The notes beneath the pieces are model-generated. The model saw only the letters and a program-made list of their open reading frames with translations. It did not search any database and was not told where the DNA came from. This document shows positions 41,795 through 55,675 of a DNA stretch of 64,000 nucleotides, in pieces. The stretch lies in assembly GCA_947646015.1 (NCBI GenBank), contig CANSEY010000007.1, positions 97,494-161,493 of the forward strand, in the 5' to 3' direction. Each line of letters opens with the position of its first letter. Positions within the stretch are counted from its first letter, which is position 1. This DNA is from an uncultured Bacteroides sp. (GTDB lineage: Bacteria > Bacteroidota > Bacteroidia > Bacteroidales > Bacteroidaceae). The translations under genes and the position numbers were made by a program.

Positions 41795-43186
41795 ATGAGT
41801 CTAAATATTGCAAAGGACAGTAAGAAACGGGTCGTCATTGTAGGCGGTGGTTTCGGTGGCTTGAAGTTGGCTAATAAGCTGAAAAAATCAGGCTTTCAAG
41901 TTGTGTTGATAGATAAGAACAACTATCATCAGTTCCCTCCGTTAATTTATCAGGTGGCCTCGGCAGGTATGGAACCGACTTCCATTTCCTTCCCCTTCCG
42001 CAAGATATTCCAGCATCGGAAAGATTTTTATTTCCGTATGGCGGAAGTACGTGCTGTTTTCCCCGAAAAGAACATGATACAGACTTCCATAGGGAAGGCG
42101 GAATACGACTATCTGGTTCTTGCCGCAGGTACGACGACCAATTTCTTCGGTAATAAACATATCGAAGAGGAGGCCATGCCAATGAAAAACGTGTCCGAAG
42201 CTATGGGGCTCAGAAATGCGCTTCTCGCCAACTTGGAGCGTGCTGTGACCTGCTCCAACAAACAAGAACAGCAGGAGTTGCTGAATATCGTTGTCGTAGG
42301 TGGTGGTGCCACGGGAGTGGAAGTGGCGGGAGTACTTTCGGAAATGAAGAAATTTGTATTGCCGAATGATTATCCCGATATGCCCAGCAGTCTGATGCAT
42401 ATTTATTTGATAGAAGCGGGTCCGCGGCTACTTGCCGGAATGTCCGAAGACTCATCGAGTCATGCAGAACAGTTTCTCCGTGAAATGGGAGTCAACATTC
42501 TTTTAAATAAGCGTGTCACGGATTACCGTGACCATAAGGTGACACTTGAAGACGGCAGTGAGATTGCTACCCGTACTTTTATTTGGGTAAGTGGAGTGAC
42601 CGGAGTTTCTTTTGGGAATATGAATACGTCCGTAATCGGTCGTGGAGGCCGTATCAAAGTAGATGCCTTCAATCGGGTAGAAGGAACGAATAATGTATTT
42701 GCCATTGGTGACTTATGTATTCTTTCCGGTGACGAAGATTATCCGAACGGACATCCTCAACTGGCACAAGTTGCCATCCAACAAGGGGAATTGCTGGCAA
42801 AGAATCTGATCCGCCTGGAAAAAGGAAAAGAGATGAAGCCTTTTCATTATCGTAACTTGGGGTCGATGGCGACTGTCGGGCGTAATCGTGCCGTGGCGGA
42901 ATTCAGCAAGGTGAAGATGCAGGGATGGTTTGCCTGGGTAATGTGGCTGGTAGTACATCTGCGCTCTATTCTGGGAGTACGCAATAAAGTAGTGGTGTTG
43001 TTGAACTGGGTATGGAATTACTTCACCTATGATCAGTCCATGAGAATGATTGTCTATGCCCGCAAGGCGAAAGAGATCCGTGACCGGGAAGCAATTGAGG
43101 CAACTACCCATTGGGGGAAAGACCTCATGCAGGAGCCGCAACCGGCCAAACAAGAACCGCAACCAAACTCAAAAGAAATAGTATAG
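41795..43186 (+). CDS. ndh: Type II NADH dehydrogenase (non-proton-pumping NADH:quinone oxidoreductase)
   Basis: 463 residues. FAD-binding VVIVGGGFGGLKLANKLKKSGF is at the N-terminus, NAD-binding VVGGGATGVEVAGVLSEM in the middle, and the quinone-site pattern LAQVAIQQGELLAKNL further on. The C-terminal region (MQGWFAWVMWLVVHLRSILG) is an amphipathic/hydrophobic membrane anchor, as in NDH-2. Transfers electrons from NADH to menaquinone at the inner membrane without pumping. A polar Gln/Pro-rich tail (EPQPAKQEPQPN) is unusual in length. The stop is followed 12 bases later by a 22-bp-period palindrome array and then a perfect palindrome with a T-run. Confidence 0.9.
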   Translation: MSLNIAKDSKKRVVIVGGGFGGLKLANKLKKSGFQVVLIDKNNYHQFPPLIYQVASAGMEPTSISFPFRKIFQHRKDFYFRMAEVRAVFPEKNMIQTSIGKAEYDYLVLAAGTTTNFFGNKHIEEEAMPMKNVSEAMGLRNALLANLERAVTCSNKQEQQELLNIVVVGGGATGVEVAGVLSEMKKFVLPNDYPDMPSSLMHIYLIEAGPRLLAGMSEDSSSHAEQFLREMGVNILLNKRVTDYRDHKVTLEDGSEIATRTFIWVSGVTGVSFGNMNTSVIGRGGRIKVDAFNRVEGTNNVFAIGDLCILSGDEDYPNGHPQLAQVAIQQGELLAKNLIRLEKGKEMKPFHYRNLGSMATVGRNRAVAEFSKVKMQGWFAWVMWLVVHLRSILGVRNKVVVLLNWVWNYFTYDQSMRMIVYARKAKEIRDREAIEATTHWGKDLMQEPQPAKQEPQPNSKEIV

Positions 43187-43198
43187 CACCGTTTTGCG

Positions 43199-43286
43199 AT
43201 GGTGTCACTATCCGGTCGGTATAGTGACACTATTACAAGGAGATAGTGACACTATAACAACAGTATAGTGACACCATGTTTTTTTG
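43199..43286. repeat. Array of four 13-bp palindromes with exact 22-bp period
   Basis: Units ATGGTGTCACTAT, ATAGTGACACTAT, ATAGTGACACTAT and ATAGTGACACCAT are centred at 43205, 43227, 43249 and 43271, always 22 bp apart, with 9-base spacers of unrelated sequence. The middle two are perfect palindromes about a central base. Unit 1 is the exact reverse complement of unit 4. Unit 4 is followed by GTTTTTTTG, so units 1 and 4 could also form a terminator-like stem for ndh. Confidence 0.9.
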
Positions 43287-43304
43287 AACGGTAAATTCGT
43301 ACAA

Positions 43305-43324
43305 GGTGTCCGATATCGGACACC
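43305..43324 (+). promoter_or_regulatory. Perfect 20-bp palindrome: candidate activator site (or ndh terminator)
   Basis: GGTGTCCGATATCGGACACC sits inside a perfect 24-bp palindrome (43303-43326). It matches 14 of 20 positions of the site at 51358 and lies at the identical distance from a -24-like element. It is followed by CTCTTTTTT, so it may also, or instead, act as an intrinsic terminator for ndh. Confidence 0.6.
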
Positions 43325-43367
43325 TTCTCTTTTTTATTATTCTCTGTTAATCAGTTGATTATGCTTT

Positions 43368-43384
43368 TGGCATAGATTTGGTAT
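43368..43384 (+). promoter_or_regulatory. Sigma-54-like promoter of the export operon
   Basis: TTTTGGCATAGATTTGGTAT (43365-43384): the -24 GG is at 43369-43370 and, ten bases on, the -12 position reads GT rather than GC. It lies about 45 bases upstream of the adaptor ATG, 63 bp after the start of the palindrome at 43305. Confidence 0.5.
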
Positions 43385-43429
43385 AATAAAAGGTAAAACA
43401 ACTGAAAGTGAAATTGTAAATACTTAGAT

Positions 43430-44677
43430 ATGGACAGAGAAATACCCAAAGAAGTGCGTAACAAAGAACGCAATAAAAAGATCATCCGTTATTCATCGAT
43501 AGGAGTGGCCGGTATAGTTGTTATCGGCATACTTATATCTGTCATGCGGACAGGAGTGGAAAAAAAGGATCTGGTACTTTCTACAGTTGATAAGGGAATG
43601 ATTGAAGTTAGTGTCAGCGCCTCCGGTAAGGTAGTCCCTGCATTTGAAGAAATCATCAATTCTCCCATTAACAGTCGTATCGTTGAGGTATACAGAAAAG
43701 GAGGGGATAGTGTGGAAATCGGCACTCCGATTCTGAAACTCGACCTTCAGAGCACGGAAACGGAATATAAAAAACTGCTTGACGAAGAACAGATGCGCCG
43801 CTATAAGCTGGATCAGCTTCGCGTCAATAATCAGACGAAACTTTCCGATATGGCGATGCAGATTAAGGTCTCTGCCATGAAATTGAGCCGCATGAAAGTG
43901 GAACTTCGGAACGAACACTATCTGGACAGTCTGGGAGCGGGAACAACAGATAAAGTGCGTCAGGCAGAATTGAGCTATAACGTAGCACAACTGGAATACG
44001 AACAGCTCCAACAACAATATAAGAACGAAAAAGAAGTAGCGGCTGCCGAACTGAAAGTGCAGGAACTGGATTTCAATATCTTCCGTAAAAGTCTTGCCGA
44101 AATGAAGCGTACACTGGACGATGCCCAGATTCGGTCTCCGCGTAAAGCGATTCTTACCTACATTAATAATCAGATCGGTGCTCAGATTTCGCAAGGCGGA
44201 CAGGTGGCCATCATCTCAGACTTAAGTCATTTTAAGGTAGAAGGTGAAATAGCCGATACCTACGGTGACCGGGTAGCTGCCGGAGGAAAAGCGGTTGTAA
44301 AGATAGGCAATGACAAACTGGAAGGAACGGTCAGCAGTGTGACACCCCTGTCTAAAAACGGAGTCATTTCTTTTACAGTGCAGTTGAAAGACGATAATAA
44401 CCACCGTTTACGTTCGGGACTGAAAACGGACGTTTATGTGATGAATGCCGTAAAGGAAGATGTGATGCGGATGGCAAACGCTTCTTTCTATGTGGGACGT
44501 GGTGAGTATGATCTTTTTGTCCGGACATCTGATGACGAACTGGTGAAACGTAAAGTACAGCTGGGCGATTCCAACTTTGAATATGTGGAAGTGGTGAGTG
44601 GCTTACAACCGGGAGATGTAGTGGTAGTCAGTGATATGAGCTCTTATAAGAACAAGAATAAGCTGAAAATGAGATAA
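43430..44677 (+). CDS. HlyD/MacA-type periplasmic adaptor of an ABC export system
   Basis: 415 residues. An N-terminal membrane anchor (IGVAGIVVIGILISVM, about residues 24-39) is followed by the lipoyl half-motif VSASGKVVPAFEEIINSPINSRIVEVYRKGGDSVEIGTPILKLD. A long coiled-coil hairpin spans about 105-220, then come the second lipoyl half (RSPRKAILTYINNQIGAQISQGGQVAIIS) and beta-barrel/proximal domains. It bridges an inner-membrane ABC permease to a TolC-type channel. First gene of the operon with ATPase, GIN-domain protein and two permeases; the TolC homologue is at 51465. Preceded by a sigma-54-like promoter. Confidence 0.9.
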   Translation: MDREIPKEVRNKERNKKIIRYSSIGVAGIVVIGILISVMRTGVEKKDLVLSTVDKGMIEVSVSASGKVVPAFEEIINSPINSRIVEVYRKGGDSVEIGTPILKLDLQSTETEYKKLLDEEQMRRYKLDQLRVNNQTKLSDMAMQIKVSAMKLSRMKVELRNEHYLDSLGAGTTDKVRQAELSYNVAQLEYEQLQQQYKNEKEVAAAELKVQELDFNIFRKSLAEMKRTLDDAQIRSPRKAILTYINNQIGAQISQGGQVAIISDLSHFKVEGEIADTYGDRVAAGGKAVVKIGNDKLEGTVSSVTPLSKNGVISFTVQLKDDNNHRLRSGLKTDVYVMNAVKEDVMRMANASFYVGRGEYDLFVRTSDDELVKRKVQLGDSNFEYVEVVSGLQPGDVVVVSDMSSYKNKNKLKMR

Positions 44678-44705
44678 AAACGATCTAAATTAAATACTTA
44701 TAGTT

Positions 44706-45371
44706 ATGATAACATTGACTTCTCTCTCTAAGATTTACCGTACGGACGAGATTGAAACGGTAGCACTGGAAAACGTGAATCTGACCGTAGACCGCGGAGA
44801 ATTTCTAAGCATTATGGGGCCGTCCGGATGTGGCAAATCTACTTTGTTGAATATTATGGGACTGCTTGATGCACCCACAACAGGAACTGTTGAAATTAAC
44901 GGTACGCACACTGAGGGAATGAAAGATAAGCAACTGGCGGCTTTCCGTAACAAAACACTGGGCTTTGTATTCCAGTCTTTCCATCTGATTAATTCACTCA
45001 ATGTGATGGATAACGTTGAGTTACCATTACTCTATCGTCGTATCGGCAGCGGTGAACGCAAGCGTTTGGCGAAGGAGGTACTGGAAAAAGTCGGATTGAG
45101 TCATCGTATGAATCACTTTCCGACGCAGCTTTCCGGTGGTCAGTGTCAGCGTGTGGCCATAGCGCGTGCAATTATCGGTCATCCGGAGATAATTCTGGCC
45201 GATGAACCTACCGGTAACCTGGATTCTAAGATGGGTGCCGAAGTCATGGAACTTCTCCATCGGCTGAATAAGGAAGACGGCCGAACTATCGTTATGGTGA
45301 CGCATAATGAAGAACAGGCGAAACAGACTTCAAGAACTATCCGTTTCTTCGATGGCCGTCAGGTACAGTAA
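44706..45371 (+). CDS. ABC transporter ATPase, MacB/LolD type
   Basis: 221 residues, the size of a stand-alone ATPase. Walker A is GPSGCGKST, then Q-loop FVFQSFHLI, signature LSGGQCQRVAIARAI, Walker B IILADEPTGNLDS and the switch His in MVTHNEEQA. The N-terminus ITLTSLSKIYRTDEIETVALENVNL is typical of the LolD/MacB/FtsE class. It powers the two FtsX-like permeases encoded downstream (46065 and 47387). It starts 28 bases after the adaptor gene. Confidence 0.95.
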   Translation: MITLTSLSKIYRTDEIETVALENVNLTVDRGEFLSIMGPSGCGKSTLLNIMGLLDAPTTGTVEINGTHTEGMKDKQLAAFRNKTLGFVFQSFHLINSLNVMDNVELPLLYRRIGSGERKRLAKEVLEKVGLSHRMNHFPTQLSGGQCQRVAIARAIIGHPEIILADEPTGNLDSKMGAEVMELLHRLNKEDGRTIVMVTHNEEQAKQTSRTIRFFDGRQVQ

Positions 45372-45400
45372 TCCCCTTTTAAACTCTAAAAAAGCTAATC

Positions 45401-46027
45401 ATGACAAAGAATATTTTTATAACTGCTGTTGCGGTATTATTAAGTGTAGCCCTTTGCCCGCTTTGGGCACAAAATGTGAGTGAAGATTGTAAAGTAGGCG
45501 AATTTTCCGCTATCAATCTGCGGTCGGTAGGTAACATTATTTTCACTCAGTCCGATACTTATTCCTGTCGGATGGAAGGTCCTTTTGAATATGTCGATAA
45601 AACAAAAGTAACGGTAAAAGGAGAAACATTGGTTATCGAATATAAGCAGAAGAATGTAAAAAACGTTAAGAACCTGACGTTCTATATCACAGCCCCTGAT
45701 TTGAAGAGTGTAAAGATCGATGGTGTCGGCAACTTCAATGCTAAAGAAACCCTGAAACTGAAAAATGTAACTTTCAAACTCGATGGAGTGGGAAACTGTG
45801 AGGTGAAAAAGCTCCATTGTGATGAGTTGGAATTAATGGTAGACGGGGTCGGGAATATGAATGTCAATGTAAACTGCAATACTGTGAAAGCCAAAGTGGA
45901 TGGAGTCGGAAATATCAAATTGTCCGGCAAGGCAGACAGAGCTTCTCTGAAGCGTGACGGAGTAGGCAGAATCAATCATAAAGGCCTGAAATGCCCGGAT
46001 GTGAGCACGAAAGGCTGGGGATTCTGA
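45401..46027 (+). CDS. Secreted GIN/DUF2807-domain protein embedded in the export operon
   Basis: 208 residues with a Sec signal ending PLWAQ. The mature part begins FSAINLRSVGNIIFTQSDTY, the opening of DUF2807 (putative auto-transporter adhesin head) domains, and carries five DGVGN/R turns at residues 107, 128, 148, 167 and 186, every 19-21 residues. This indicates a parallel beta-helix. No cell-anchoring sequence is seen. Its place between the ATPase and the permeases suggests a job in the same envelope process, as a partner or a cargo. Function in the family is unknown. Confidence 0.85.
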   Translation: MTKNIFITAVAVLLSVALCPLWAQNVSEDCKVGEFSAINLRSVGNIIFTQSDTYSCRMEGPFEYVDKTKVTVKGETLVIEYKQKNVKNVKNLTFYITAPDLKSVKIDGVGNFNAKETLKLKNVTFKLDGVGNCEVKKLHCDELELMVDGVGNMNVNVNCNTVKAKVDGVGNIKLSGKADRASLKRDGVGRINHKGLKCPDVSTKGWGF

Positions 46028-46064
46028 TAAGTATGAAAATGAATGAGAAGATAATGAGATTACA

Positions 46065-47354
46065 ATGATAAAACTCTATTTCAAACAAGCATTTCACCTG
46101 TTGAAGGAGAATAAGTTACTTTCTTCTATCTCTATCATAGGTACGGCATTGGCTATTGCTATGATTATGGTGATTGTGATCACATTGCGTGCTACTATTG
46201 CACCCTTTGCTCCGGAAAGCTATCGTGACCGTATGTTGATTTTCAGGTATGCGGGATTTCAGTATAAAACAAACGAGAACTGGCAGAGTAACGGACCTGT
46301 TTCTTATAAGACAGCGAAAGCCTGTTTTAAAGAAATGGCTGCCCCTGAAGCAGTTACTATAACCAGCAGTTTCTCGGAAACGATGCTGGCTGCCAAGCCA
46401 GCGGGAGAGAAGGTTAGTTGCAGTGTATTGCAGGTGGATGATGATTTCTGGAAAGTATTTAAGTTCGATTTCCTTTCGGGATATCCGTTTGATAAGGCTA
46501 CTTTTGATGCCGGTGCAACCAAAGCAGTAATATCTGAGGATATAGCCCGGCAATTGTTCGGAACATCGGATGTAGTCGGAAAAACATTCCTTTTAAATCA
46601 CTCCGCTTATATGATTTGTGGAGTTGTGCGTCCCGTATCCAAACTGGCACGGTATGCTTATGCCCAGATTTGGATTCCTTTAAGTTCAACAGATGCGTTT
46701 ACCGCCAGTTGGGGTGAATATGGAATTATGGGAATGGTGAGTGTCTACATTCTGGCTAAATCTCAGGATGACTTTCCGGCAATCCGTATGGAAGCTGAAC
46801 GTCTCAGGGACAGATATATGGAAGGTTATCCGGATTATGAATTGCTTTATCGTGACCAGCCGGATACTTATTTTGTGGCGGCACAACGATATTCAGCCAA
46901 TAATCCTCCGGCTGTGAAGCAGGCTGTCCGTCAGTATATAATAACGTTAATCATTCTGTTGATCGTACCTGCTGTCAACCTTTCCGGACTGACATTGTCG
47001 CGTATGCGCAAACGCCTTTCTGAAATCGGTGTTCGAAAAGCTTTCGGTGCGCCCAGACGCGAACTGATGATACAGGTACTTTCTGAGAATATGCTTTATT
47101 CACTGTTGGGTGGAGTGCTCGGATTAATTCTGAGTTATGGCGCAACTTTCTTCTTGGGAAGTATGCTGTTTTCCATTGACTTTATGGGTAATGGTGTGAC
47201 GGATTTGCGGACCATGTGTATGGATCTGCTGTTTGATCCGGTTGTGTTCTTGCTCGCATTTTTTACCTGCTTTGCACTTAATTTATTGAGTGCTGCCATT
47301 CCGGCATGGAGAGTGACACGGACAAATATTGTGGATGCCATCAATGAGAGATAA
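46065..47354 (+). CDS. ABC transporter permease, MacB/FtsX type (1)
   Basis: 429 residues. The N-terminal membrane segment is ISIIGTALAIAMIMVIVITL. A large periplasmic MacB-PCD-like domain follows (about 45-285; VISEDIARQLFGTSDVVGKTFLL). Three C-terminal membrane segments surround the conserved LSRMRKRLSEIGVRKAFGAPRRELMIQVLSENML and end PAWRVTRTNIVDAINER. The ISE-GVRKA-GA coupling helix contacts the ATPase. It likely forms a heterodimer with the next gene's product. The gap after the GIN gene is 37 bases. Confidence 0.92.
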   Translation: MIKLYFKQAFHLLKENKLLSSISIIGTALAIAMIMVIVITLRATIAPFAPESYRDRMLIFRYAGFQYKTNENWQSNGPVSYKTAKACFKEMAAPEAVTITSSFSETMLAAKPAGEKVSCSVLQVDDDFWKVFKFDFLSGYPFDKATFDAGATKAVISEDIARQLFGTSDVVGKTFLLNHSAYMICGVVRPVSKLARYAYAQIWIPLSSTDAFTASWGEYGIMGMVSVYILAKSQDDFPAIRMEAERLRDRYMEGYPDYELLYRDQPDTYFVAAQRYSANNPPAVKQAVRQYIITLIILLIVPAVNLSGLTLSRMRKRLSEIGVRKAFGAPRRELMIQVLSENMLYSLLGGVLGLILSYGATFFLGSMLFSIDFMGNGVTDLRTMCMDLLFDPVVFLLAFFTCFALNLLSAAIPAWRVTRTNIVDAINER

Positions 47355-47386
47355 CCGAAACATTCAACAAACTAATTTTTAAGAAG

Positions 47387-48640
47387 ATGCAACTGTTAAA
47401 ACAAATATGGAACGAACGTCGCTCGAACGGGTGGCTGTGGGCAGAATTGCTGATTGTTTTCGTGGTGCTGTGGTACATTGTCGATTGGACGTATGCAACA
47501 GCGCGTACTTATTACGAACCGCTGGGATATGACATCACCAATACTTACTATCTGGAACTCAGTCTGAAAAACAATAAGAGTGATTCTTATATTCCGAAGG
47601 GGCAGAAAGAAACGACGACGGGACAAGACATTGTCGAACTGACTAACCGTCTCCGTCGTTTGCCGGAAGTGGAGGCTGTCTCGATATCAGTGAATGCACG
47701 TCCGTATATAGGAAGCAATTCCGGTATCCGTTTTCGCCTTGATACGCTGGTGCGCAGTCCGTTGAGACGTCCGGTAACACCGGAGTTTTTTCAGGTGTTC
47801 CGTTATCAAAGTGCGGATGGACAGGGATATCAGCCTTTAATGCAGGCTATAAAAAACGGAAATGCGGTTCTCAGCGAGAATATATGGCCCGACGATTATA
47901 AAGGTGACCGCACGTTGCTGGGAAAAGAAGTCGTGAATGTGGATGATTCTACAGACGTCTATAAAATAGCTGCCGTATCGACTAAGGTACGTTACAATGA
48001 TTTTTGGCCAAATTACAGCGACCGATATATGGCTATTCCTCTTACGGAAGCACAATTGGCCGAGATTAATGATGACCTGTATCCGCTCAATACGGAAGTT
48101 TGCCTGCGTGTAAAGCCGAATACGGCTCCCGGCTTTCCGGAGCGTCTGATGGAACAGTCGGATACCCAGTTCAGTGTGGGAAATCTTTTTATACTGAAGG
48201 TACACGATTACGAGATGATACGTGAGGATTATAATCGTACCAATGTCAATCATATGCAGACGCGGTTTTGGATGATGGGCTTTTTGTTGGTGAATATCCT
48301 GTTGGGAATAGTCGGTACATTCTGGTTTCGTACCCAGCATCGTCGTGGAGAACTCGGACTTCGTGTTGCAGTCGGTTCCACCCGCATGGGGCTCTGGCAC
48401 CGTCTTAACAAAGAAGGATTGTTGCTGCTGACGCTGGCCGCTTTGCCCGCTGCTGTTCTTTGTTATAATATTGGTTATCTGGAACTGACGGAAGGTAGTA
48501 TAGAGTGGAGTACCATTCGTTTTCTTATCACTTTTTGTGTGACAAGTCTTTTGATGGCTTTGATGATACTCATAGGCATTTGGTTCCCCGCCCGGCAGGC
48601 GATCCGTATACAGCCGGCAGAAGCCTTACGCGAGGAATAA
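47387..48640 (+). CDS. ABC transporter permease, MacB/FtsX type (2)
   Basis: 417 residues. Membrane segment near residues 16-35 (WLWAELLIVFVVLWYIVDWT), a periplasmic domain at about 40-290, then three membrane segments around RTQHRRGELGLRVAVGSTRMGLWHRLNKEGLLLL. It ends PARQAIRIQPAEALREE, the standard FtsX tail. It diverges strongly from permease 1, so a heterodimeric transporter is likely. The last gene before a hairpin that contains the promoter of the sensor kinase. Confidence 0.92.
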   Translation: MQLLKQIWNERRSNGWLWAELLIVFVVLWYIVDWTYATARTYYEPLGYDITNTYYLELSLKNNKSDSYIPKGQKETTTGQDIVELTNRLRRLPEVEAVSISVNARPYIGSNSGIRFRLDTLVRSPLRRPVTPEFFQVFRYQSADGQGYQPLMQAIKNGNAVLSENIWPDDYKGDRTLLGKEVVNVDDSTDVYKIAAVSTKVRYNDFWPNYSDRYMAIPLTEAQLAEINDDLYPLNTEVCLRVKPNTAPGFPERLMEQSDTQFSVGNLFILKVHDYEMIREDYNRTNVNHMQTRFWMMGFLLVNILLGIVGTFWFRTQHRRGELGLRVAVGSTRMGLWHRLNKEGLLLLTLAALPAAVLCYNIGYLELTEGSIEWSTIRFLITFCVTSLLMALMILIGIWFPARQAIRIQPAEALREE

Positions 48641-48656
48641 AAAACTGAAGCTATTT

Positions 48657-48719
48657 GCATTGTTTTCAATATAATAACTTATCTTTGTAGGCAAAATGTT
48701 GAAAACAATGCTGTTTTTT
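48657..48719 (+). terminator. Terminator-like inverted repeat after the permeases, reaching the kinase start
   Basis: Perfect 13-bp inverted repeat GCATTGTTTTCAA (48657-48669) / TTGAAAACAATGC (48699-48711) followed by TGTTTTTT. Only readthrough RNA from the permease operon contains both arms. The 29-base loop carries a promoter element. Confidence 0.6.
48680..48687 (+). promoter_or_regulatory. -7 element of the SBP-kinase gene, inside the terminator loop
   Basis: TATCTTTG matches TAnnTTTG, with a possible -33 TTG at 48660-48662 inside the left arm. It lies 37 bases before the ATG at 48724. Confidence 0.6.
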
Positions 48720-48723
48720 GCTT

Positions 48724-51333
48724 ATGAACCGACAATATTACTGTTTGTTTGTTGTTTTGTTCTTCGTTGTTTTTGCCCGGGCGGCGGCAGCAGAACATAC
48801 ATACAACATACTTTTTATTCAATCTTATACCTCGCAAACCCCTTGGCATAACGACCTGAATGAGGGGCTGACCAAGGGATTCAAAGAGAATGGACTGAAA
48901 GTAAATATTACTACTGAATATTTGGATGCCGATTTTTGGTCATTCAGTTCGGAGAAAGTGATTATGCAGCGTTTTTGTCAGCGTGCCCGTGACAGAAAGA
49001 CGGATATGATTATCACAGCCAGCGATGAGGCTTTTTACACTCTTTTCTCTTCCGGCGATTCGTTGCCTTACCAAGTTCCGGTTGTGTTTTTCGGAATCAA
49101 ATATCCCGATAAAGAACTTATAGCGAGTCTTCCCAATGTATGCGGATTCACCGCTAATCCCGATTTTTATGTGATCTTAAAGCAGGCACAAAAGGTATTT
49201 CCCCAACGGAAAGAAGTGATATGTGTGATTGACAACAGTTTTCTGAGTAATAAGGGACGTGAGGACTTCAAACAAGAATGGCAGCTTTTTCAGGAAGAGA
49301 ATCCGGATTACAAGATGAAACTCTACAATACCCAGCATGAATCAACCAATCATATTATTGCGGCTATCTGTTATCCCCGCAATAGTTATGCTCGGGTTGT
49401 GGTTGCTCCCAAATGGTCACCGTTCCTTTCGTTTGTAGGCAAGAACTCCAAAGCACCGGTCTTCTCCAGTCAGAATGTGGGGCTGATGAACGGTGTATTT
49501 GCGGCATATGACGCAGACGCCTATACCTCTGCGATGTCTGCTGCAAAGAAGGCATCGCGAGTGTTGAAGGGGGAATCTCCCTTGAAACTGGGTGTGACGG
49601 AGACGGAACAGGGATTTATTTACGATTATAAACAGCTGGACTTCTTTCATATAGACCCGGATAAGGTTTCCTCCAGTGGCAGTGTTGTTAATCAGCCGTA
49701 TTGGGAAAGATATAAATTATTGTTTATTCTTCTTTATCCATCTATCCTGGCATTGTTGATCGTCTCTATCGTGTGGCTCATTCGTGTCAACCGTCGTGAA
49801 GCTAAGCGACGGATACATGCCCAGACCCGCTTGTTGGTGCAGAATAAACTGGTGGAACAGCGGAATGAGTTTGATAATATCTTCCATTCCATACGCGACG
49901 GTGTGATCACATATGATACTGATCTTCATATTCACTTTACCAACCGTTCTCTGCTGAAGATCCTTCATTTACCCTCAGAATCGGGCGGACGGAATTATGA
50001 AGGAATGATGGCGGGCAGTATTTTCAAAATATACTATAACGGTCAGGATATCCTTTACAAGATATTGAAGAAGGTGGGAGAGACTGGGCAGAGTGTCATT
50101 ATTCCCGATGGGGCTTTTATGAAAGAAGTACATAGCGAACATTATTTCCCGGTTTCCGGGGAAGTTGTTCCGATTCATTCAGGCGGGCAGATTACCGGTA
50201 TGGCACTTTCGGCACGCAACGTATCGGATGAAGAAATGCAGAAACGTTTCTTTGACATGGCCGTGGAGGAAAGTTCTATTTACCCTTGGCAGTTTGATGT
50301 GGAGAGTAATAGTTTCATCTTTCCGCAAGGTTTTCTTGTTCGTTTTGGTTATGATGAGTCGATTACTTCCATCACCCGCGACGAAATGGATCGTATGGTT
50401 TATCCGGAGGATTTGAAGGAAATGCGTATTCTCTTTGATAAAACATTGGCGGGAAAAGAAACCAATACCCGTTTGAATTTCCGTCAGCGCAATGCCAATG
50501 GAGAATATGAATGGTGGGAATACCGTTCCTCTGTTATTTCCGGTTTGACGAGAGATTCGCTATATAATATATTAGGTGTATGCCAAAGTATCCAACGTTA
50601 TAAGACAGCAGAACAGGAAATGAGGGAGGCGCGTGATAAGGCACTTCAGGCTGACAAACTGAAATCTGCTTTCCTTGCCAATATGAGTCATGAAATCCGT
50701 ACACCACTGAATGCTATTGTCGGTTTCTCCGACTTGTTGAGCGATACAAGCGGCTTTACAGAAGAGGAAATAGGGCAATTTATAGCAACGATCAATAAGA
50801 ATTGCGGATTGTTACTTGCATTGATTAATGATATTCTCGATCTGTCGCGTATCGAGTCAGGAACAATGGAATTTATGTTTGCCAATCATAATTTGCCTCT
50901 GCTGCTGAAGACAGTGCATGATTCTCAACAACTGAATATGCCTCCGAGAGTGGAACTGTTGCTTCGTATGCCCGATAATGAGAAAAAATACCTGGTGACA
51001 GATAATGTCCGTCTCCAACAAGTCGTCAATAATCTGATCAATAATGCTGCCAAGTTTACGACTTACGGTTCCATTACTTTCGGATATGAGGAAGATGAAG
51101 ATCCCGAATATACCCGAATCTTTGTGGAAGATACGGGAGTCGGCATATCCGAAGAAGGTATCCGTCATATCTTCGAACGATTCTATAAGGTGGACAACTT
51201 TACACAGGGAGCCGGTCTTGGATTGAGTATCTGCCAGACGATTGTCGAACGTCTGAGAGGAACGATCTTTGTGACTTCCGAAGTAGGCAGGGGAACTCGC
51301 TTTACTGTACGTATCCCGAATTTCTGCGAATAA
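48724..51333 (+). CDS. Sensor histidine kinase with periplasmic ABC-substrate-binding-like domain and PAS domains
   Basis: 869 residues from the ATG at 48724 (an in-frame TTG lies two codons earlier). Signal/anchor to about residue 23. An extracytoplasmic domain like ABC substrate-binding proteins follows (YNILFIQSYTSQTPWHNDLNEGL, VPVVFFGIKYPD, FSSQNVGLMNGVFAAYDADAY). A membrane segment lies near 333-355, then PAS-like regions, then HisKA with His656 in NMSHEIRTPLNAIVGFSDLL. The ATPase N-box is NNLINNAAKF, with DTGVGISEEG and GLGLSICQTIVERL. There is no receiver domain. It phosphorylates an unidentified partner; the NtrC-like regulator at 53012 is a candidate. It sits between the ABC permeases and tolC. 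Confidence 0.9.
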   Translation: MNRQYYCLFVVLFFVVFARAAAAEHTYNILFIQSYTSQTPWHNDLNEGLTKGFKENGLKVNITTEYLDADFWSFSSEKVIMQRFCQRARDRKTDMIITASDEAFYTLFSSGDSLPYQVPVVFFGIKYPDKELIASLPNVCGFTANPDFYVILKQAQKVFPQRKEVICVIDNSFLSNKGREDFKQEWQLFQEENPDYKMKLYNTQHESTNHIIAAICYPRNSYARVVVAPKWSPFLSFVGKNSKAPVFSSQNVGLMNGVFAAYDADAYTSAMSAAKKASRVLKGESPLKLGVTETEQGFIYDYKQLDFFHIDPDKVSSSGSVVNQPYWERYKLLFILLYPSILALLIVSIVWLIRVNRREAKRRIHAQTRLLVQNKLVEQRNEFDNIFHSIRDGVITYDTDLHIHFTNRSLLKILHLPSESGGRNYEGMMAGSIFKIYYNGQDILYKILKKVGETGQSVIIPDGAFMKEVHSEHYFPVSGEVVPIHSGGQITGMALSARNVSDEEMQKRFFDMAVEESSIYPWQFDVESNSFIFPQGFLVRFGYDESITSITRDEMDRMVYPEDLKEMRILFDKTLAGKETNTRLNFRQRNANGEYEWWEYRSSVISGLTRDSLYNILGVCQSIQRYKTAEQEMREARDKALQADKLKSAFLANMSHEIRTPLNAIVGFSDLLSDTSGFTEEEIGQFIATINKNCGLLLALINDILDLSRIESGTMEFMFANHNLPLLLKTVHDSQQLNMPPRVELLLRMPDNEKKYLVTDNVRLQQVVNNLINNAAKFTTYGSITFGYEEDEDPEYTRIFVEDTGVGISEEGIRHIFERFYKVDNFTQGAGLGLSICQTIVERLRGTIFVTSEVGRGTRFTVRIPNFCE

Positions 51334-51357
51334 GACTGAACGTTCATTTCTGTGCAT

Positions 51358-51377
51358 AGTGTCCGAAAATGAACACT
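51358..51377 (+). promoter_or_regulatory. Candidate activator-binding palindrome upstream of the TolC gene
   Basis: AGTGTCCGAAAATGAACACT, an imperfect palindrome matching 14 of 20 positions of the palindrome at 43305. It has no T-run after it, so it is not a terminator. The start lies 63 bp before the -24 element at 51421. Confidence 0.6.
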
Positions 51378-51420
51378 GATACATTTCTCTAACCGATTGA
51401 TAGTAAATGTATTATTCTTT

Positions 51421-51436
51421 TGGCACATGGTTTGAT
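51421..51436 (+). promoter_or_regulatory. Sigma-54-type promoter of the TolC-like gene
   Basis: TGGCACATGGTTTGAT matches the -24/-12 consensus TGGCACG-N4-TTGCA except at two bases, with the correct ten-base GG-to-G spacing; the -12 dinucleotide is GA instead of GC. The ATG follows at 51465. Confidence 0.7.
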
Positions 51437-51464: not shown

Positions 51465-52943
51465 ATGAAAAAGAAAAGTATATTGTTTGTTCTGGCTGCA
51501 ATCTGTCTGCCTTTGGCAGTGTCGGCACAGAAAGAGAGGGAAATCACCTTGAACGAAGCTATCGCTATGGCGCGTATGCAGTCTGTTGACGCTGCCGTTG
51601 CCTTGAATGAGTTGAAAACATCTTATTGGGAATATCGCACATTCCGTGCCGATCTTCTTCCGGAAATCAATCTGAAAGGAACACTGCCTAATTACAATAA
51701 ATCTTACGGCTCCTATCAGAATCCGGACGGTTCTTACAGCTTTGTCCGCAACAGCGCCTTAGGTCTTTCCGGTGAACTTTCCATCGACCAGAATATCTGG
51801 CTTACCGGTGGACAACTTTCACTAACCTCTTCCCTCGACTACCTAAAGCAACTGGGTAATAGCGGTGATCGCCATCTGATGTCCGTTCCTGTTACTTTAA
51901 AACTGACCCAACCTATTCTTGGTGTGAATAATGTGAAGTGGAACAGGCGTATAGAACCTGTGCGATATGCCGAAGCGAAAGCGGAATTTATCACAGCTAC
52001 CGAAGAAGTGACGATGCGGGCTATTACCTATTACTTTGATCTGCTGTTGGCGAAGGAGACTCTTGGAACCGCCCGTCAGAACTTGACGAATGCCAATCAG
52101 CTTTACGAAGTGGCTATAGCTAAACGCAAGATGGGACAGATTTCGGAAAATGAACTTCTCCAGTTAAAACTTTCAGCATTGAATGCAAAGGCTGCGTTGA
52201 CCGAAGCCGAAAGTGATCTGAATGCCAAGATGTTCCAGCTTCGTGCCTTTCTGGGAGTGGGAGAGGATGAAATCCTCCGTCCTGTTGTTCCCGAGTCGGT
52301 AGATTGTGGTAAAATGGAATATAATATGGTTTTGAATAAAGCGCTGGAACGTAATTCTTTTGCCCAGAATATTCGTCGCCGTCAGTTGGAGGCCGATTAT
52401 GCGGTAGCTACGGCACGTGGTAATCTGCGTAGCATTAATTTGTTTGCCAGTGTAGGATATACGGGAGAGAGTCGTGAACTTTCCAGTGTCTACAGGAACT
52501 TGCAGGATAATCAGATTGTGCAGGTAGGCGTTCAGATTCCGATTCTGGACTGGGGAAAGAGACGCGGAAAGGTACGGGTAGCGAAAAGCAATCGGGATGT
52601 AGTACTTTCGAAGATACGGCAGGAACAGATCAACTTCAACCAGGACATATTCTTGCTGGTAGAGCATTTCAATAATCAGGCACAGCAATTGGAGATAGCC
52701 AAAGAGGCGGATGGCATAGCTCAGCAACGTTACAAAACCAGTATTGAAACCTTCCTGATTGGTAAAATCAATACACTGGATTTGAATGATGCCCAGAACG
52801 CCAAAGACGAGGCACGCCGGAAACACATCTCCGAACTTTATTATTACTGGTATTACTTTTATCAGATCCGTAGTCTGACTCTCTGGGATTTCCAGGCTAA
52901 CACGGAGTTGGAAGCAGATTTTGATGAAATAGTGCGACAATAG
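51465..52943 (+). CDS. TolC-family outer-membrane efflux protein
   Basis: 492 residues from the ATG at 51465. The frame opens at 51420, but that would overlap the sigma-54-type promoter and place 15 residues before the signal peptide MKKKSILFVLAAICLPLAVSAQ. OEP features are the ITLNEAIAMARMQSVDA opening, coiled-coil helices with QLYEVAIAKRKMGQISENELLQLKL and RYKTSIETFLIGKINTLDLNDAQNAKDEA, and the membrane strand VQVGVQIPILDWGKRRGKVRVAK. It provides the outer-membrane exit for the adaptor/ABC system encoded upstream. It ends about 70 bases before the NtrC-like regulator. Confidence 0.92.
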   Translation: MKKKSILFVLAAICLPLAVSAQKEREITLNEAIAMARMQSVDAAVALNELKTSYWEYRTFRADLLPEINLKGTLPNYNKSYGSYQNPDGSYSFVRNSALGLSGELSIDQNIWLTGGQLSLTSSLDYLKQLGNSGDRHLMSVPVTLKLTQPILGVNNVKWNRRIEPVRYAEAKAEFITATEEVTMRAITYYFDLLLAKETLGTARQNLTNANQLYEVAIAKRKMGQISENELLQLKLSALNAKAALTEAESDLNAKMFQLRAFLGVGEDEILRPVVPESVDCGKMEYNMVLNKALERNSFAQNIRRRQLEADYAVATARGNLRSINLFASVGYTGESRELSSVYRNLQDNQIVQVGVQIPILDWGKRRGKVRVAKSNRDVVLSKIRQEQINFNQDIFLLVEHFNNQAQQLEIAKEADGIAQQRYKTSIETFLIGKINTLDLNDAQNAKDEARRKHISELYYYWYYFYQIRSLTLWDFQANTELEADFDEIVRQ

Positions 52944-52962: not shown

Positions 52963-52993
52963 TTGCTTGTATTGAGTATTTACAATATCTTTG
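52963..52993 (+). promoter_or_regulatory. Housekeeping promoter of the NtrC/NtrB-type pair
   Basis: TTG (52963-52965), a 20-base spacer and TATCTTTG (52986-52993) match the Bacteroides -33/-7 architecture, 19 bases before the regulator ATG. Confidence 0.65.
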
Positions 52994-53011: not shown

Positions 53012-54361
53012 ATGATTTTAATAATAGACGACGACAGTGCGGTACGCTCTTCACTCAGTTTTATGTTGAAGCGGGCTGGATATGAAGCACAAACGGTTTC
53101 CGGTCCCCGGGAAGCTATGGAGGTGGTGCGTTCCGTAGCACCGGATTTAATCTTAATGGATATGAACTTCACCCTTTCTACTACAGGTGAAGAAGGGCTG
53201 ACTTTGCTCAGGCAAGTGAAAATATTCCGTCCGGAAACTCCGGTGATACTGATGACCGCCTGGGGAAGCATACAGCTTGCCGTGCAAGGTATGCAGGCAG
53301 GAGCCTTCGATTTTATCACCAAACCTTGGAATAATGCGGCATTGTTGCAACGTATCGAGACGGCTTTGGAACTGGCAGGCTCTCCCAAAGAGACAACGCA
53401 GGAACAGAATGACGCTTTCGACCGTCGTCATATCATCGGCCGTAGTCAGGGACTGACAGAAGTACTGAATACCATTGCCCGTATAGCAAAGACGAATGCT
53501 TCCGTACTGATCACCGGAGAAAGTGGGACGGGCAAGGAGCTGATAGCCGAGGCGATACACATCAACAGCCAGCGTGCCAAACAGCCTTTTGTCAAAGTGA
53601 ACTTGGGAGGAATCTCCCAAAGTCTGTTCGAAAGTGAAATGTTCGGCCATAAGAAAGGAGCTTTTACGGATGCTTCCTCCGACCGTATCGGACGCTTTGA
53701 GATGGCGAACAAAGGAACCATCTTTCTGGACGAGATCGGTGATCTCGACCCTTCTTGTCAAGTGAAGCTCTTGCGGGTGTTACAAGATCAGACGTTTGAA
53801 GTATTGGGAGACAGCCGTCCCCGTAAGACGGATATTCGTGTCGTCTCCGCTACCAATGCCGATTTACGCAAGATGGTGGGCGAACGTACTTTCCGCGAAG
53901 ATTTGTTTTACCGTATTAATCTGATTACCGTCAGACTGCCGGCTTTGCGTGAGCGTCGGGAGGATATTCCCTTGCTGGCACGTCACTTTGCCGATCGTCA
54001 GGCAGAGGCCAACGGTTTTCCTCGCACCGAATTTTCAGCGGATGCCTTGCAGTTTCTGAGTCGCTTACCTTATCCGGGAAATATCCGTGAATTGAAGAAT
54101 CTGGTAGAACGTACGATTCTGGTCAATGGAAAGCCGACGCTTGATGCCGCCGACTTTGATGCTCAGTATATCCGTCACGAAGATCAGAAAGTCGCCGAAG
54201 GCGCATCCTTTGCTGGTATGACTCTGGATGAAATAGAACGGCAGACGATTTTGCAGGCTTTGGAGCGTCATAAGGGAAATTTGAGTCAGGTAGCTACAGC
54301 GCTTGGCATCAGTCGTGCCGCCCTTTACCGTCGTTTGGAGAAGTTTGGAATCAGTGTTTAG
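53012..54361 (+). CDS. NtrC-type response regulator (sigma-54 activator)
   Basis: 449 residues. Receiver domain at 1-120 with acidic pocket Asp6-Asp8 and phospho-acceptor Asp50, and Lys104 in ITKPW. AAA+ domain at about 140-375: Walker A GESGTGKE (169-176), Walker B GTIFLDEIGD (235-244), and the sigma-54 contact loop reading GAFTDA (216-221) instead of GAFTGA. A C-terminal Fis-type HTH is seen in GNLSQVATALGISRAALYRRLEKFGI. It should activate sigma-54 promoters by ATP hydrolysis. The cognate kinase gene follows after 21 bases. The two sigma-54-like promoters with a shared palindrome in this region are the obvious targets. Confidence 0.93.
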   Translation: MILIIDDDSAVRSSLSFMLKRAGYEAQTVSGPREAMEVVRSVAPDLILMDMNFTLSTTGEEGLTLLRQVKIFRPETPVILMTAWGSIQLAVQGMQAGAFDFITKPWNNAALLQRIETALELAGSPKETTQEQNDAFDRRHIIGRSQGLTEVLNTIARIAKTNASVLITGESGTGKELIAEAIHINSQRAKQPFVKVNLGGISQSLFESEMFGHKKGAFTDASSDRIGRFEMANKGTIFLDEIGDLDPSCQVKLLRVLQDQTFEVLGDSRPRKTDIRVVSATNADLRKMVGERTFREDLFYRINLITVRLPALRERREDIPLLARHFADRQAEANGFPRTEFSADALQFLSRLPYPGNIRELKNLVERTILVNGKPTLDAADFDAQYIRHEDQKVAEGASFAGMTLDEIERQTILQALERHKGNLSQVATALGISRAALYRRLEKFGISV

Positions 54362-54382: not shown

Positions 54383-55675
54383 ATGCGTATAAAAGGATTT
54401 TTTGGTATACTCGTTTTCCTGCTTCTGGTCTTGGGGGGTGGATTGCTTTTCCTTTCAAGCCGGTTGAACCTGATCTATTTCTATATAGGAGAGGGGTTGG
54501 TCCTTTTTATCCTGTGTTATCTCCCGTTTTTCTATCGTAAGATTGTGAAACCGCTGAACTCTATCGGAAGCGGTATGGAACTGTTGCGCGAACAGGATTT
54601 CAGCAGCCGGTTAAGTCCCGTGGGGCAATATGAAGCCGACCGTATTGTGAATGTCTTCAACCGGATGATGGAGCAACTAAAGAATGAACGTCTCCGTCTT
54701 CGCGAACAGAATAACTTCCTTGACCTGCTGATTAAAGCCTCTCCGATGGGAGTCATCCTCACCACATTGGACGAGGACCTTTCCGAGCTGAACCCGATGG
54801 CGCAGAAAATGCTGGGTGTCCGTCAGGAAGATGTCTTGGGCAAAAAGATGAACGAGATAGATTCTCCGCTTGCCGCCGAGTTGGCAAACGTGCCGAAGGG
54901 AGAAACGGCTACCGTCCGTCTGAATGATTCGAATATTTATAGATGTACGCATTCCTCTTTTATTGACCGTGGATTTCAACATCCCTTCTTCCTGATAGAA
55001 AGTCTGACGGACGAAGTGATGAAGGCAGAGAAGAAAGCCTACGAGAAGGTGATCCGCATGATTGCCCACGAAGTGAACAACACTACTGCCGGAATAACCT
55101 CCACACTGGATACAGTAGAACAGGCGCTTTCCACCGAAGAAGGCATGGATGATATTTGCGATGTCATGCGTGTATGTATCGAACGCTGTTTCTCTATGAG
55201 CCGTTTCATCACCCGTTTTGCCGATGTAGTGAAGATTCCCGAACCGACGCTCACGCCTGTCGACCTGAATGACCTCGCATTTACCTGCAAGCGTTTTATG
55301 GAAGGTATGTGTGCCGACCGGAACATAAAACTTCGTCTGGAGATAGACGAAACGTTGAAAGAGGTAAAAATGGATGCCTCCCTCTTCGAACAGGTACTGG
55401 TAAACATCATCAAGAATGCTGCGGAAAGCATCGAAAAGGATGGCGAGATTATCGTCCGCACCCTTTCTCCTGCCACTATCGAAGTGGTGGACAACGGTAA
55501 GGGAATCAGCAAAGAGGTGGAAGCGAAGCTGTTCAGCCCGTTCTTCTCCACCAAGCCCAATGGTCAGGGAATCGGACTGATCTTTATCCGGGAGGTTCTG
55601 ATGCGTCACGGCTGCACTTTCTCTCTGCGGACTTATGCCGACGGATTGACCAGATTCCGTATTCTTTTTCCCTGA
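54383..55675 (+). CDS. NtrB-type membrane sensor histidine kinase
   Basis: 430 residues. Two closely spaced membrane segments (about 5-25 and 30-50) with almost no periplasmic loop are followed by a HAMP-like region, a PAS domain (FLDLLIKASPMGVILTTLDEDLSELNP), and the H-box MIAHEVNNTTAGI with phospho-His229. The ATPase domain holds NIIKNAAESIEKDG, VVDNGKGI and FFSTKPNGQGIGLIFIREVL. The HEVNN form of the H-box is that of NtrB/NtrY-like kinases. Lack of a periplasmic domain suggests that it senses a membrane or cytosolic signal. Partner of the upstream NtrC-type regulator. Confidence 0.92.
   Translation: MRIKGFFGILVFLLLVLGGGLLFLSSRLNLIYFYIGEGLVLFILCYLPFFYRKIVKPLNSIGSGMELLREQDFSSRLSPVGQYEADRIVNVFNRMMEQLKNERLRLREQNNFLDLLIKASPMGVILTTLDEDLSELNPMAQKMLGVRQEDVLGKKMNEIDSPLAAELANVPKGETATVRLNDSNIYRCTHSSFIDRGFQHPFFLIESLTDEVMKAEKKAYEKVIRMIAHEVNNTTAGITSTLDTVEQALSTEEGMDDICDVMRVCIERCFSMSRFITRFADVVKIPEPTLTPVDLNDLAFTCKRFMEGMCADRNIKLRLEIDETLKEVKMDASLFEQVLVNIIKNAAESIEKDGEIIVRTLSPATIEVVDNGKGISKEVEAKLFSPFFSTKPNGQGIGLIFIREVLMRHGCTFSLRTYADGLTRFRILFP

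Follow-up and report, generated by a model that had tools for sequence, protein, structure and literature searches.

The locus studied here poses the question of what switches on a set of exporter genes in a gut Bacteroides, and whether the regulator encoded beside them is responsible. We analysed a stretch of 64,000 nucleotides (the window; C7:97494-161493) from an assembly of 4.9 Mb that is 74.7% complete. The adaptor encoded in the window is 97% identical to that of B. faecis MAJ27, and the source genome lies near B. faecis. According to the original prediction, two sigma-54-like promoters with related palindromes probably make the operon and its channel the targets of an adjacent NtrC-type regulator, in a self-contained export regulon.

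The exporter locus and its promoters

Tripartite ABC exporters of the MacAB-TolC type consist of an adaptor, an ABC ATPase, a MacB-fold permease with an FtsX-like end and a TolC-like channel. Components of the same types are encoded in the window, where Pfam domains bore out the earlier gene calls (adaptor, ABC ATPase, DUF2807 protein, two MacB-like permeases, sensor kinase, TolC-like channel, NtrC-type regulator and kinase):

41795-43186, NDH2-type dehydrogenase gene, upstream of and co-directional with the adaptor gene
43430..44677, + strand, periplasmic adaptor (HlyD/MacA-like; PF13437, PF16576)
44706..45371, + strand, ABC ATPase (PF00005)
45401..46027, + strand, DUF2807 (head GIN domain) protein (PF10988)
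46065..47354, + strand, MacB-like permease 1 (PF12704, PF02687)
47387..48640, + strand, MacB-like permease 2 (PF12704, PF02687)
48718..51333, + strand, sensor kinase with an ABC_sub_bind (substrate-binding-type) sensor domain (domain calls)
51465..52943, + strand, TolC-like outer-membrane channel (PF02321)
52986..52993, + strand, TATCTTTG, presumably a housekeeping-like -7 box of the regulator gene
53012..54361, + strand, NtrC-type response regulator (receiver, AAA+ with GAFTDA, Fis-type HTH), the proposed dyad binder (from domains and co-occurrence)
54383..55675, + strand, sensor kinase (HAMP, PAS, HATPase), the proposed partner of the regulator (domain calls)

By Pfam, all parts of such an exporter are present (adaptor, ATPase, MacB_PCD/FtsX permease and OEP channel), and export is predicted. 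Unlike in MacAB-TolC, the ATPase is a separate gene and the permeases come in diverging sets. In the stretches downstream of 80 related adaptor genes (L007-L086), adaptor and ATPase are conserved, with a median identity to the window of 83% and 85%, while the best MacB-like permease matches have diverged to 44% and 38%, with up to seven permease-like genes in the stretch covered.

Sigma-54 promoters are of the TGGCAC-N5-TTGC type, in which a spacer of 10 bp separates GG at -24 from G(C) at -12. PMC12316311 gives TGGCAC and TGC as the promoter elements. Two such promoters, each with a dyad upstream, are found in the window:

43305..43324, unstranded, main activator dyad (UAS) of the adaptor promoter, GGTGTCCGATATCGGACACC (read directly; at most 2/14 mismatches in 80/81 loci)
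43368..43381, + strand, sigma-54 -24/-12 element of the adaptor promoter, TGGCATAGATTTGG (pattern scan, alignment)
51358..51377, unstranded, main dyad of the tolC promoter, AGTGTCCGAAAATGAACACT (read directly, scans)
51421..51434, + strand, sigma-54 -24/-12 element of the tolC promoter, TGGCACATGGTTTG (read directly, pattern scan)

Both sites read as originally claimed. The adaptor palindrome is followed by TTTTGGCAT and the tolC palindrome by TTTTGGCAC, with the T of TGG at 43368 and 51421, respectively. The start-to-start distance from palindrome to TTTTGGCA box is 63 bp in both cases, and the two palindromes are identical at 14 of 20 positions (hand count). The stretch upstream of the sensor kinase gene at 48718..51333 contains no dyad at fewer than six mismatches and resembles what we take to be a housekeeping promoter.

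The dyad core stands out against chance. At up to three mismatches it has four matches in the window, three of which are the adaptor and tolC sites (one scored on both strands), compared with 0.38 expected; none of 100 shuffles reached four. The -24/-12 pattern alone, at two mismatches, was not significant (21 matches vs 16.7 expected; 14/100 shuffles reached 21), and its only perfect matches in the window are the adaptor and tolC boxes. Throughout the source genome, which has one RpoN gene, RGTGTCCGAWAWYGRACACY occurs without mismatch at the adaptor and tolC sites only; at up to three mismatches its 5+4 matches do not exceed the control (5+5).

For comparison, we used the best 80 of 181 confirmed adaptor relatives with up to 10 kb on each side, a choice that tilts the set towards close relatives; since the loci are related, counts over them are not independent. 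Up to 350 bp upstream of the adaptor were scanned in 81 loci, including the window, with the distance between dyad and box left free. The dyad GTGTYCGNNNNCGRACAC followed by TGGCAY-N5-TNG was found in 80 of them, and in the remaining one, L069, a contig end cuts it off. Among the 80, the dyad has zero (66 loci), one (10) or two (4) mismatches of 14, the box zero (78) or one (2), and the distance from dyad start to TGG is 62 bp (59), 61 bp (20) or 64 bp (1). Random 350-bp pieces of the same loci, a control set that contains the true sites, gave up to two dyad mismatches in 126 of 4000 cases. As expected of a sigma-54 promoter, TGGCA is conserved at 97-100%, T(+11) and G(+13) at 100% and C(+14) at 52%. 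The proposal of sigma-54 promoters with an activator dyad at a fixed distance upstream is well supported by this conservation.

The composite of dyad, gap and TGGCAY occurs at 117 sites in the 1.53 Mb of the 80 adaptor loci and the window, and at none on the reversed sequence. These sites, some of which overlap, precede adaptor (81, there by choice of the loci), ABC (24), TolC (8), MacB (2) and other genes (2). Within 160 bp upstream of the tolC orthologs read, dyad and box are present in 7/14, a box without dyad in 1/14 and neither in 6/14.

Two further elements, which the earlier reading had missed, accompany the main dyads:

43349..43361, + strand, IHF-like element AATCAGTTGATTA of the adaptor promoter (at most 1/9 mismatch to WWTCARNNNNTTR at the same offset in 74/80 loci)
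51402..51414, + strand, weak IHF-like element of the tolC promoter with 2 mismatches (by eye, at the offset of the adaptor locus)
43287..43304, unstranded, degenerate second copy of the dyad at the adaptor promoter, with CG-TACA as its right half, shifted 19 bp upstream from the main copy
51340..51357, unstranded, degenerate second copy of the dyad at the tolC promoter, with GTTC as its left half (recognised by eye at shift -19, at this one site)

When the 80 loci are aligned on the -24 box, the gap between dyad and promoter is poorly conserved save for T-rich parts and WWTCARNNNNTTR, which we take to be the IHF consensus. At offset -19 the mismatches to this motif average 0.3 of 9, and 29 of the other 31 offsets have no locus with one mismatch or fewer (-30 has three, -11 has two), a test that measures sharpness of position rather than providing an independent discovery, since the motif came from the same 80 loci. 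An IHF/HU-like protein may bind there, between the dyads and the promoter. For the second dyad, the mean match over the 80 loci is 7.54/14 at shift -19 compared with 1.8-5.8 at 31 other shifts, the next best being -26 (5.83/14) and -25 (5.67/14).

Two other features were noticed around the adaptor promoter. Directly upstream, at 43199-43277, are four 13-bp copies of the ATAGTGACACTAT type with 22-bp spacing, which fold into nested hairpins (-36.9 kcal/mol); a variant set is present in L007, and none was found in the 500 bp searched in L012 and L014. In L060, an insert of ∼120 bp with inverted-repeat ends separates the sigma-54 box from the adaptor start, which are 178 bp apart, compared with 58 bp in L063.

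A third predicted promoter and its putative small RNA

A third composite lies at C29:36395-36462 of the source genome. Its dyad-to-box distance is unchanged, its dyad is again a tandem, with the second copy 21 bp away, and its IHF-like element has two mismatches. It is flanked on one side by an ECF sigma gene and a FecR gene, and on the opposite side by a TolC-like gene (the TolC-like identity was tested on the B. fragilis copy). No near ORF of at least 70 aa lies downstream on the same strand. Instead, the DNA encodes a putative RNA of ∼93 nt with a 5' hairpin, an unpaired linker and a terminator hairpin, and the expected transcription start falls within a few bases of the folded RNA. The fold is far more stable than that of shuffled sequences (-39.6 vs a mean of -21.9 kcal/mol; z -5.7). 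The regulon is therefore not self-contained in this genome, contrary to the original prediction.

G124 has an ortholog of the RNA at 89% identity, and B. fragilis Q1F2 one at 85% across the RNA portion. A covariance model built on these two and the source RNA was searched against 158 genomes of the genus with stricter filters. The RNA was retained in four of them (the source genome, G124, G199 and G201), all with a -24 box and tandem dyads; G201 and Q1F2 have the RNA at the same coordinates and are probably one genome. Matches in 23 of the 27 matching genomes (E 8e-6 to 0.009) were rejected: among 30 loci read, 26 had no TGGC box in the preceding 60 bp, and one more match had no locus. A DNA search of 80 genus genomes returned the source genome and G124, and an Rfam search of the promoter and RNA loci gave no family.

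In G199, G201 and G124, the RNA linker is antisense to the leader of SusC-like genes (STN and TonB plug domains). All 12 non-self matches of the linker within three mismatches end 15 nt before the same start codon in these three genomes, where the targets form clusters of three gene copies (the G201 cluster appears on two contigs). Paired with the leaders of its own genome, each RNA forms 26 Watson-Crick pairs of 26 in G201, 24 or 25 of 26 plus one GU in G199, and 24 of 26 plus one GU in G124. Whole-molecule duplexes with the B. fragilis leader reach -50 to -60 kcal/mol. For the B. fragilis RNA, the one compared with shuffles, the duplex of -51.8 kcal/mol lies beyond 300 shuffled targets (mean -35.8, best -47.8) by a small margin, because the hairpins add pairing, and we place more weight on the long match and its position. 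In the source genome, 74.7% of which is covered, no SusC leader matched within three mismatches, and the RNA itself was the only hit.

A promoter, a terminator hairpin and an unpaired stretch antisense to a leader are what would be expected of a trans-acting small RNA, and by sequence the RNA has all three. In B. thetaiotaomicron, the FopS small RNAs, which have housekeeping promoters and 14 copies, pair near the start of susC mRNA (PMC11697453, in excerpt). The RNA described here would share this mode of pairing; it differs from FopS, as far as that excerpt describes it, in being single-copy where found, in its sigma-54 box and in its lack of an Rfam match. Since FopS RNAs repress susC through pairing at the start region, according to the same excerpt, repression is a natural guess here, and the RNA probably lowers translation of the SusC-like mRNAs in the three related genomes. 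The match could instead reflect mere shared descent, with another target or role for the RNA, or the SusC mRNA could act as a sponge for it. The narrow distribution in the genus, the source genome without a SusC match and a duplex energy just slightly beyond the best shuffle would fit such explanations, which we regard as doubtful, though of some weight, given a nearly complete match that lies in the unpaired linker and at the same place before the start codon in every case, and given the FopS precedent.

The regulator and its proposed regulon

The proposed dyad binder has a receiver, a Sigma54_activat AAA+ domain and a Fis-type HTH, as expected of an NtrC-type activator. Its loop reads GAFTDA. 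Of 11 orthologs read, nine have FTDA and two FTGA or YTGA, and FTDA also occurs in two of six other activators read; GAFTGA is called invariant in the excerpt of PMC12316311.

The scan of related genomes for the dyad and a TGGCA box, suggested in the original prediction as a check, found the composite and found it to track this regulator. In a survey of 101 family genomes including the source genome, 100 of them at least 90% complete, a broad composite pattern gave 57 matches in 34 genomes, some of them presumably by chance, compared with nine for a reversed control. The match is correctly spaced (65-69 nt) in 29 genomes, and five have wrongly spaced matches only. Orthologs of the regulator (at least 60% identity) are present in 33 genomes, four by partial matches (G058, G061, G072 and G091). 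The correctly spaced composite occurs in 29 of these 33 genomes and in none of the 68 others (hand count; Fisher p 2.4e-21, with kinship ignored). The original prediction also implied that the palindrome should persist where the regulator is kept. This held for the 12 adaptor loci whose stretch includes the regulator, none of which lacks it, and did not hold in four of the 33 regulator genomes (G031, G049, G064 and G090), which have no exact composite anywhere.

The source genome encodes seven clear sigma-54 activators, six besides the adjacent regulator, and one of these, or a repressor, might bind the dyad of otherwise sigma-54-dependent promoters. We consider this improbable, as the composite follows the ortholog of the adjacent regulator and is absent from 11 genomes with paralogs only (41-44% identity), which are among the 68. 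The co-occurrence thus ties the dyad to the adjacent regulator rather than to other sigma-54 activators.

The genes behind the composite point in the same direction. Ten genomes of named records contain 29 composites, compared with one for the reversed pattern, followed by adaptor (10), TolC (8), ABC ATPase (5), DUF3836 (3), DUF2807 (2) and MacB permease genes (1); 24 of the 29 thus precede exporter parts. In other species the regulon appears to extend to ABC ATPase, MacB permease, DUF2807 and DUF3836 genes. Together with the co-occurrence, this supports the claim that the operon and channel are targets of the adjacent regulator, which very probably switches on the neighbouring export pump in gut Bacteroides. 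The distance is 61-63 bp in 28 of the 29 composites. At the exception, the TolC site L108, TGG follows the dyad start after 48 bp rather than 62 bp. G051:C7:5534 and G066:C11:49786 have the same short spacing, and no IHF-like element was seen by eye at these three sites; L108 precedes tolC, and the other two were placed at tolC solely by their distance to the regulator.

For 20 of the 57 survey matches the DNA behind was read, and it comprises adaptor (6), ABC (3), MacB (3), TolC (2) and DUF2807 (2) genes and four other sites. One of these (L209) meets a contig end. In two genomes the composite precedes a gene unrelated to the exporter, coding for a 655 aa thioredoxin-like protein (L210) or a 659 aa protein without Pfam match (L208). 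The fourth (L201, G106:C2:8500-10700) has tandem dyads that are strong but is followed by no gene, just by a short piece of DNA with a hairpin at its end, and may represent a second, unrelated small RNA of the regulon or a lost gene. Outside the family, the composite (gap 40-46) was found in two of 195 genomes, both of one other family, where its four sites precede an ABC, an adaptor and two TolC genes. Separately, the leaders of DUF2807 and DUF3836 genes (L093, L097, L098, L107 and L109) contain GCAAC-N∼18-CGTCTAA-like pieces that by eye resemble an ECF-sigma promoter.

The terminator-like hairpin and the proposed circuit

The adaptor dyad also has the appearance of an intrinsic terminator behind the dehydrogenase gene (41795-43186), an apparent role that the earlier reading had missed as well:

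43303..43335, + strand, intrinsic-terminator-like hairpin on the adaptor dyad, 10 bp stem, T-rich tail (fold -16.9 kcal/mol)

The flanks of the stem covary, the first flanking pair being GC in 47 and AT in 24 of the 80 loci. Three paired flanks and a T-run of at least four occur in 33 of 37 loci with a co-directional upstream gene (within 150 bp) compared with 5 of 21 with a divergent one (within 300 bp; Fisher p 7.5e-7, with kinship ignored and genes called by ORF length only). This comparison leaves out 22 unclear loci, 14 of them with both features; a cruder first split gave paired flanks in 46/51 vs 11/27, with two loci unplaced. That the palindrome is merely a terminator at an incidental distance from the TGGCA box is, despite these features, improbable, because the dyad core is kept in both groups, the 61-64 bp distance is kept at divergent loci, and the dyad also precedes ABC, TolC and RNA transcripts. 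The most plausible reading of the terminator feature is a double function, in which the dyad likely serves as both activator site and terminator of the upstream gene.

The sequences show conserved, regularly spaced promoter elements that co-occur with the regulator, as well as a folded RNA with an antisense match, and from these we infer the following course of events. In response to a signal, the kinase would phosphorylate the NtrC-type regulator, which would bind the strong dyad and its weaker neighbour, ∼78 bp ahead of the expected start. The DNA between dyads and promoter would be bent by an IHF/HU-like protein, and the AAA+ ring of the regulator would then open the RNA polymerase-sigma-54 complex. 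The adaptor-ATPase-permease operon and the TolC-like channel would then be made, and read-through from tolC would also raise the regulator. In the source genome, the ∼93 nt RNA would be a third transcript under the same promoter design, and in the three related genomes it would base-pair with the leaders of SusC-like mRNAs, close before the start codon. We hold this scheme, in which the adjacent regulator activates the adaptor and tolC sigma-54 promoters, to be probable as a whole, including the RNA. Its logic is likely that of an envelope-stress-type switch, with export up and, where RNA and target exist, one import route down.

QseE/QseF-GlmY of E. coli is among the closest known systems. 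It combines a two-component NtrC-type activator, several upstream dyads, IHF, sigma-54 and a small RNA with an envelope role (PMC6075780, in excerpt), and its counterparts here, recognised by sequence, are the two-component pair, the dyads, the sigma-54 promoter and the putative small RNA target, with the conserved IHF-like motif as a possible parallel to the IHF site. In contrast, the excerpt gives the QseF dyad as TGT-N12-ACA, compared with TGT-N10-ACA here, and we therefore describe the system as working like QseF-GlmY without filing it as a member. It also belongs to another phylum, its predicted main targets are exporter genes, and its RNA is a predicted SusC antisense, whereas GlmY acts via RapZ.

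Sigma-54 control of FtsX-like permeases is not new in itself, since computed sigma-54 regulons predicted such a link in Bacteroidia (PMC12316311). In that work, the terms 'UAS' and 'upstream activating' have no match, and in its excerpt no activator is assigned; the dyad, the geometry, the dual role and the RNA are likewise absent from the excerpt. None of the titles and abstract openings found in searches of open papers describes the dyad, the regulon or the RNA, and the excerpt of PMC10861873 has no match for RpoN or efflux. A guess that the bile-induced efflux genes BT_2685-BT_2689 (PMC10994844, in excerpt) correspond to the adaptor operon was unconfirmed and dropped. Envelope stress and exported proteins are also among the functions under sigma-54 promoters in Flavobacterium psychrophilum (PMC9723704, in excerpt).

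For the little-studied sigma-54 of gut Bacteroides, these results offer one activator, one dyad, a nearly fixed promoter geometry and a short, testable list of targets. They add a candidate small RNA whose target is predicted, the likely involvement of DNA bending and a dyad that apparently works as enhancer and terminator alike. Should the exporter turn out to handle bile or host peptides, the switch would matter for survival in the gut. More broadly, and more tentatively, a single sigma-54 activator may run an envelope-stress circuit of Bacteroidota, driving a tripartite exporter whose enhancer dyad doubles as the terminator of the preceding gene; in some species, a dedicated small RNA would also silence a SusC importer locus of three copies. 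As a separate observation on such loci, the three SusC-like genes of L163-L171 and L174-L176 have near-identical leaders, and one gene is inverted relative to the other two, suggesting that the locus is invertible (shufflon-like).
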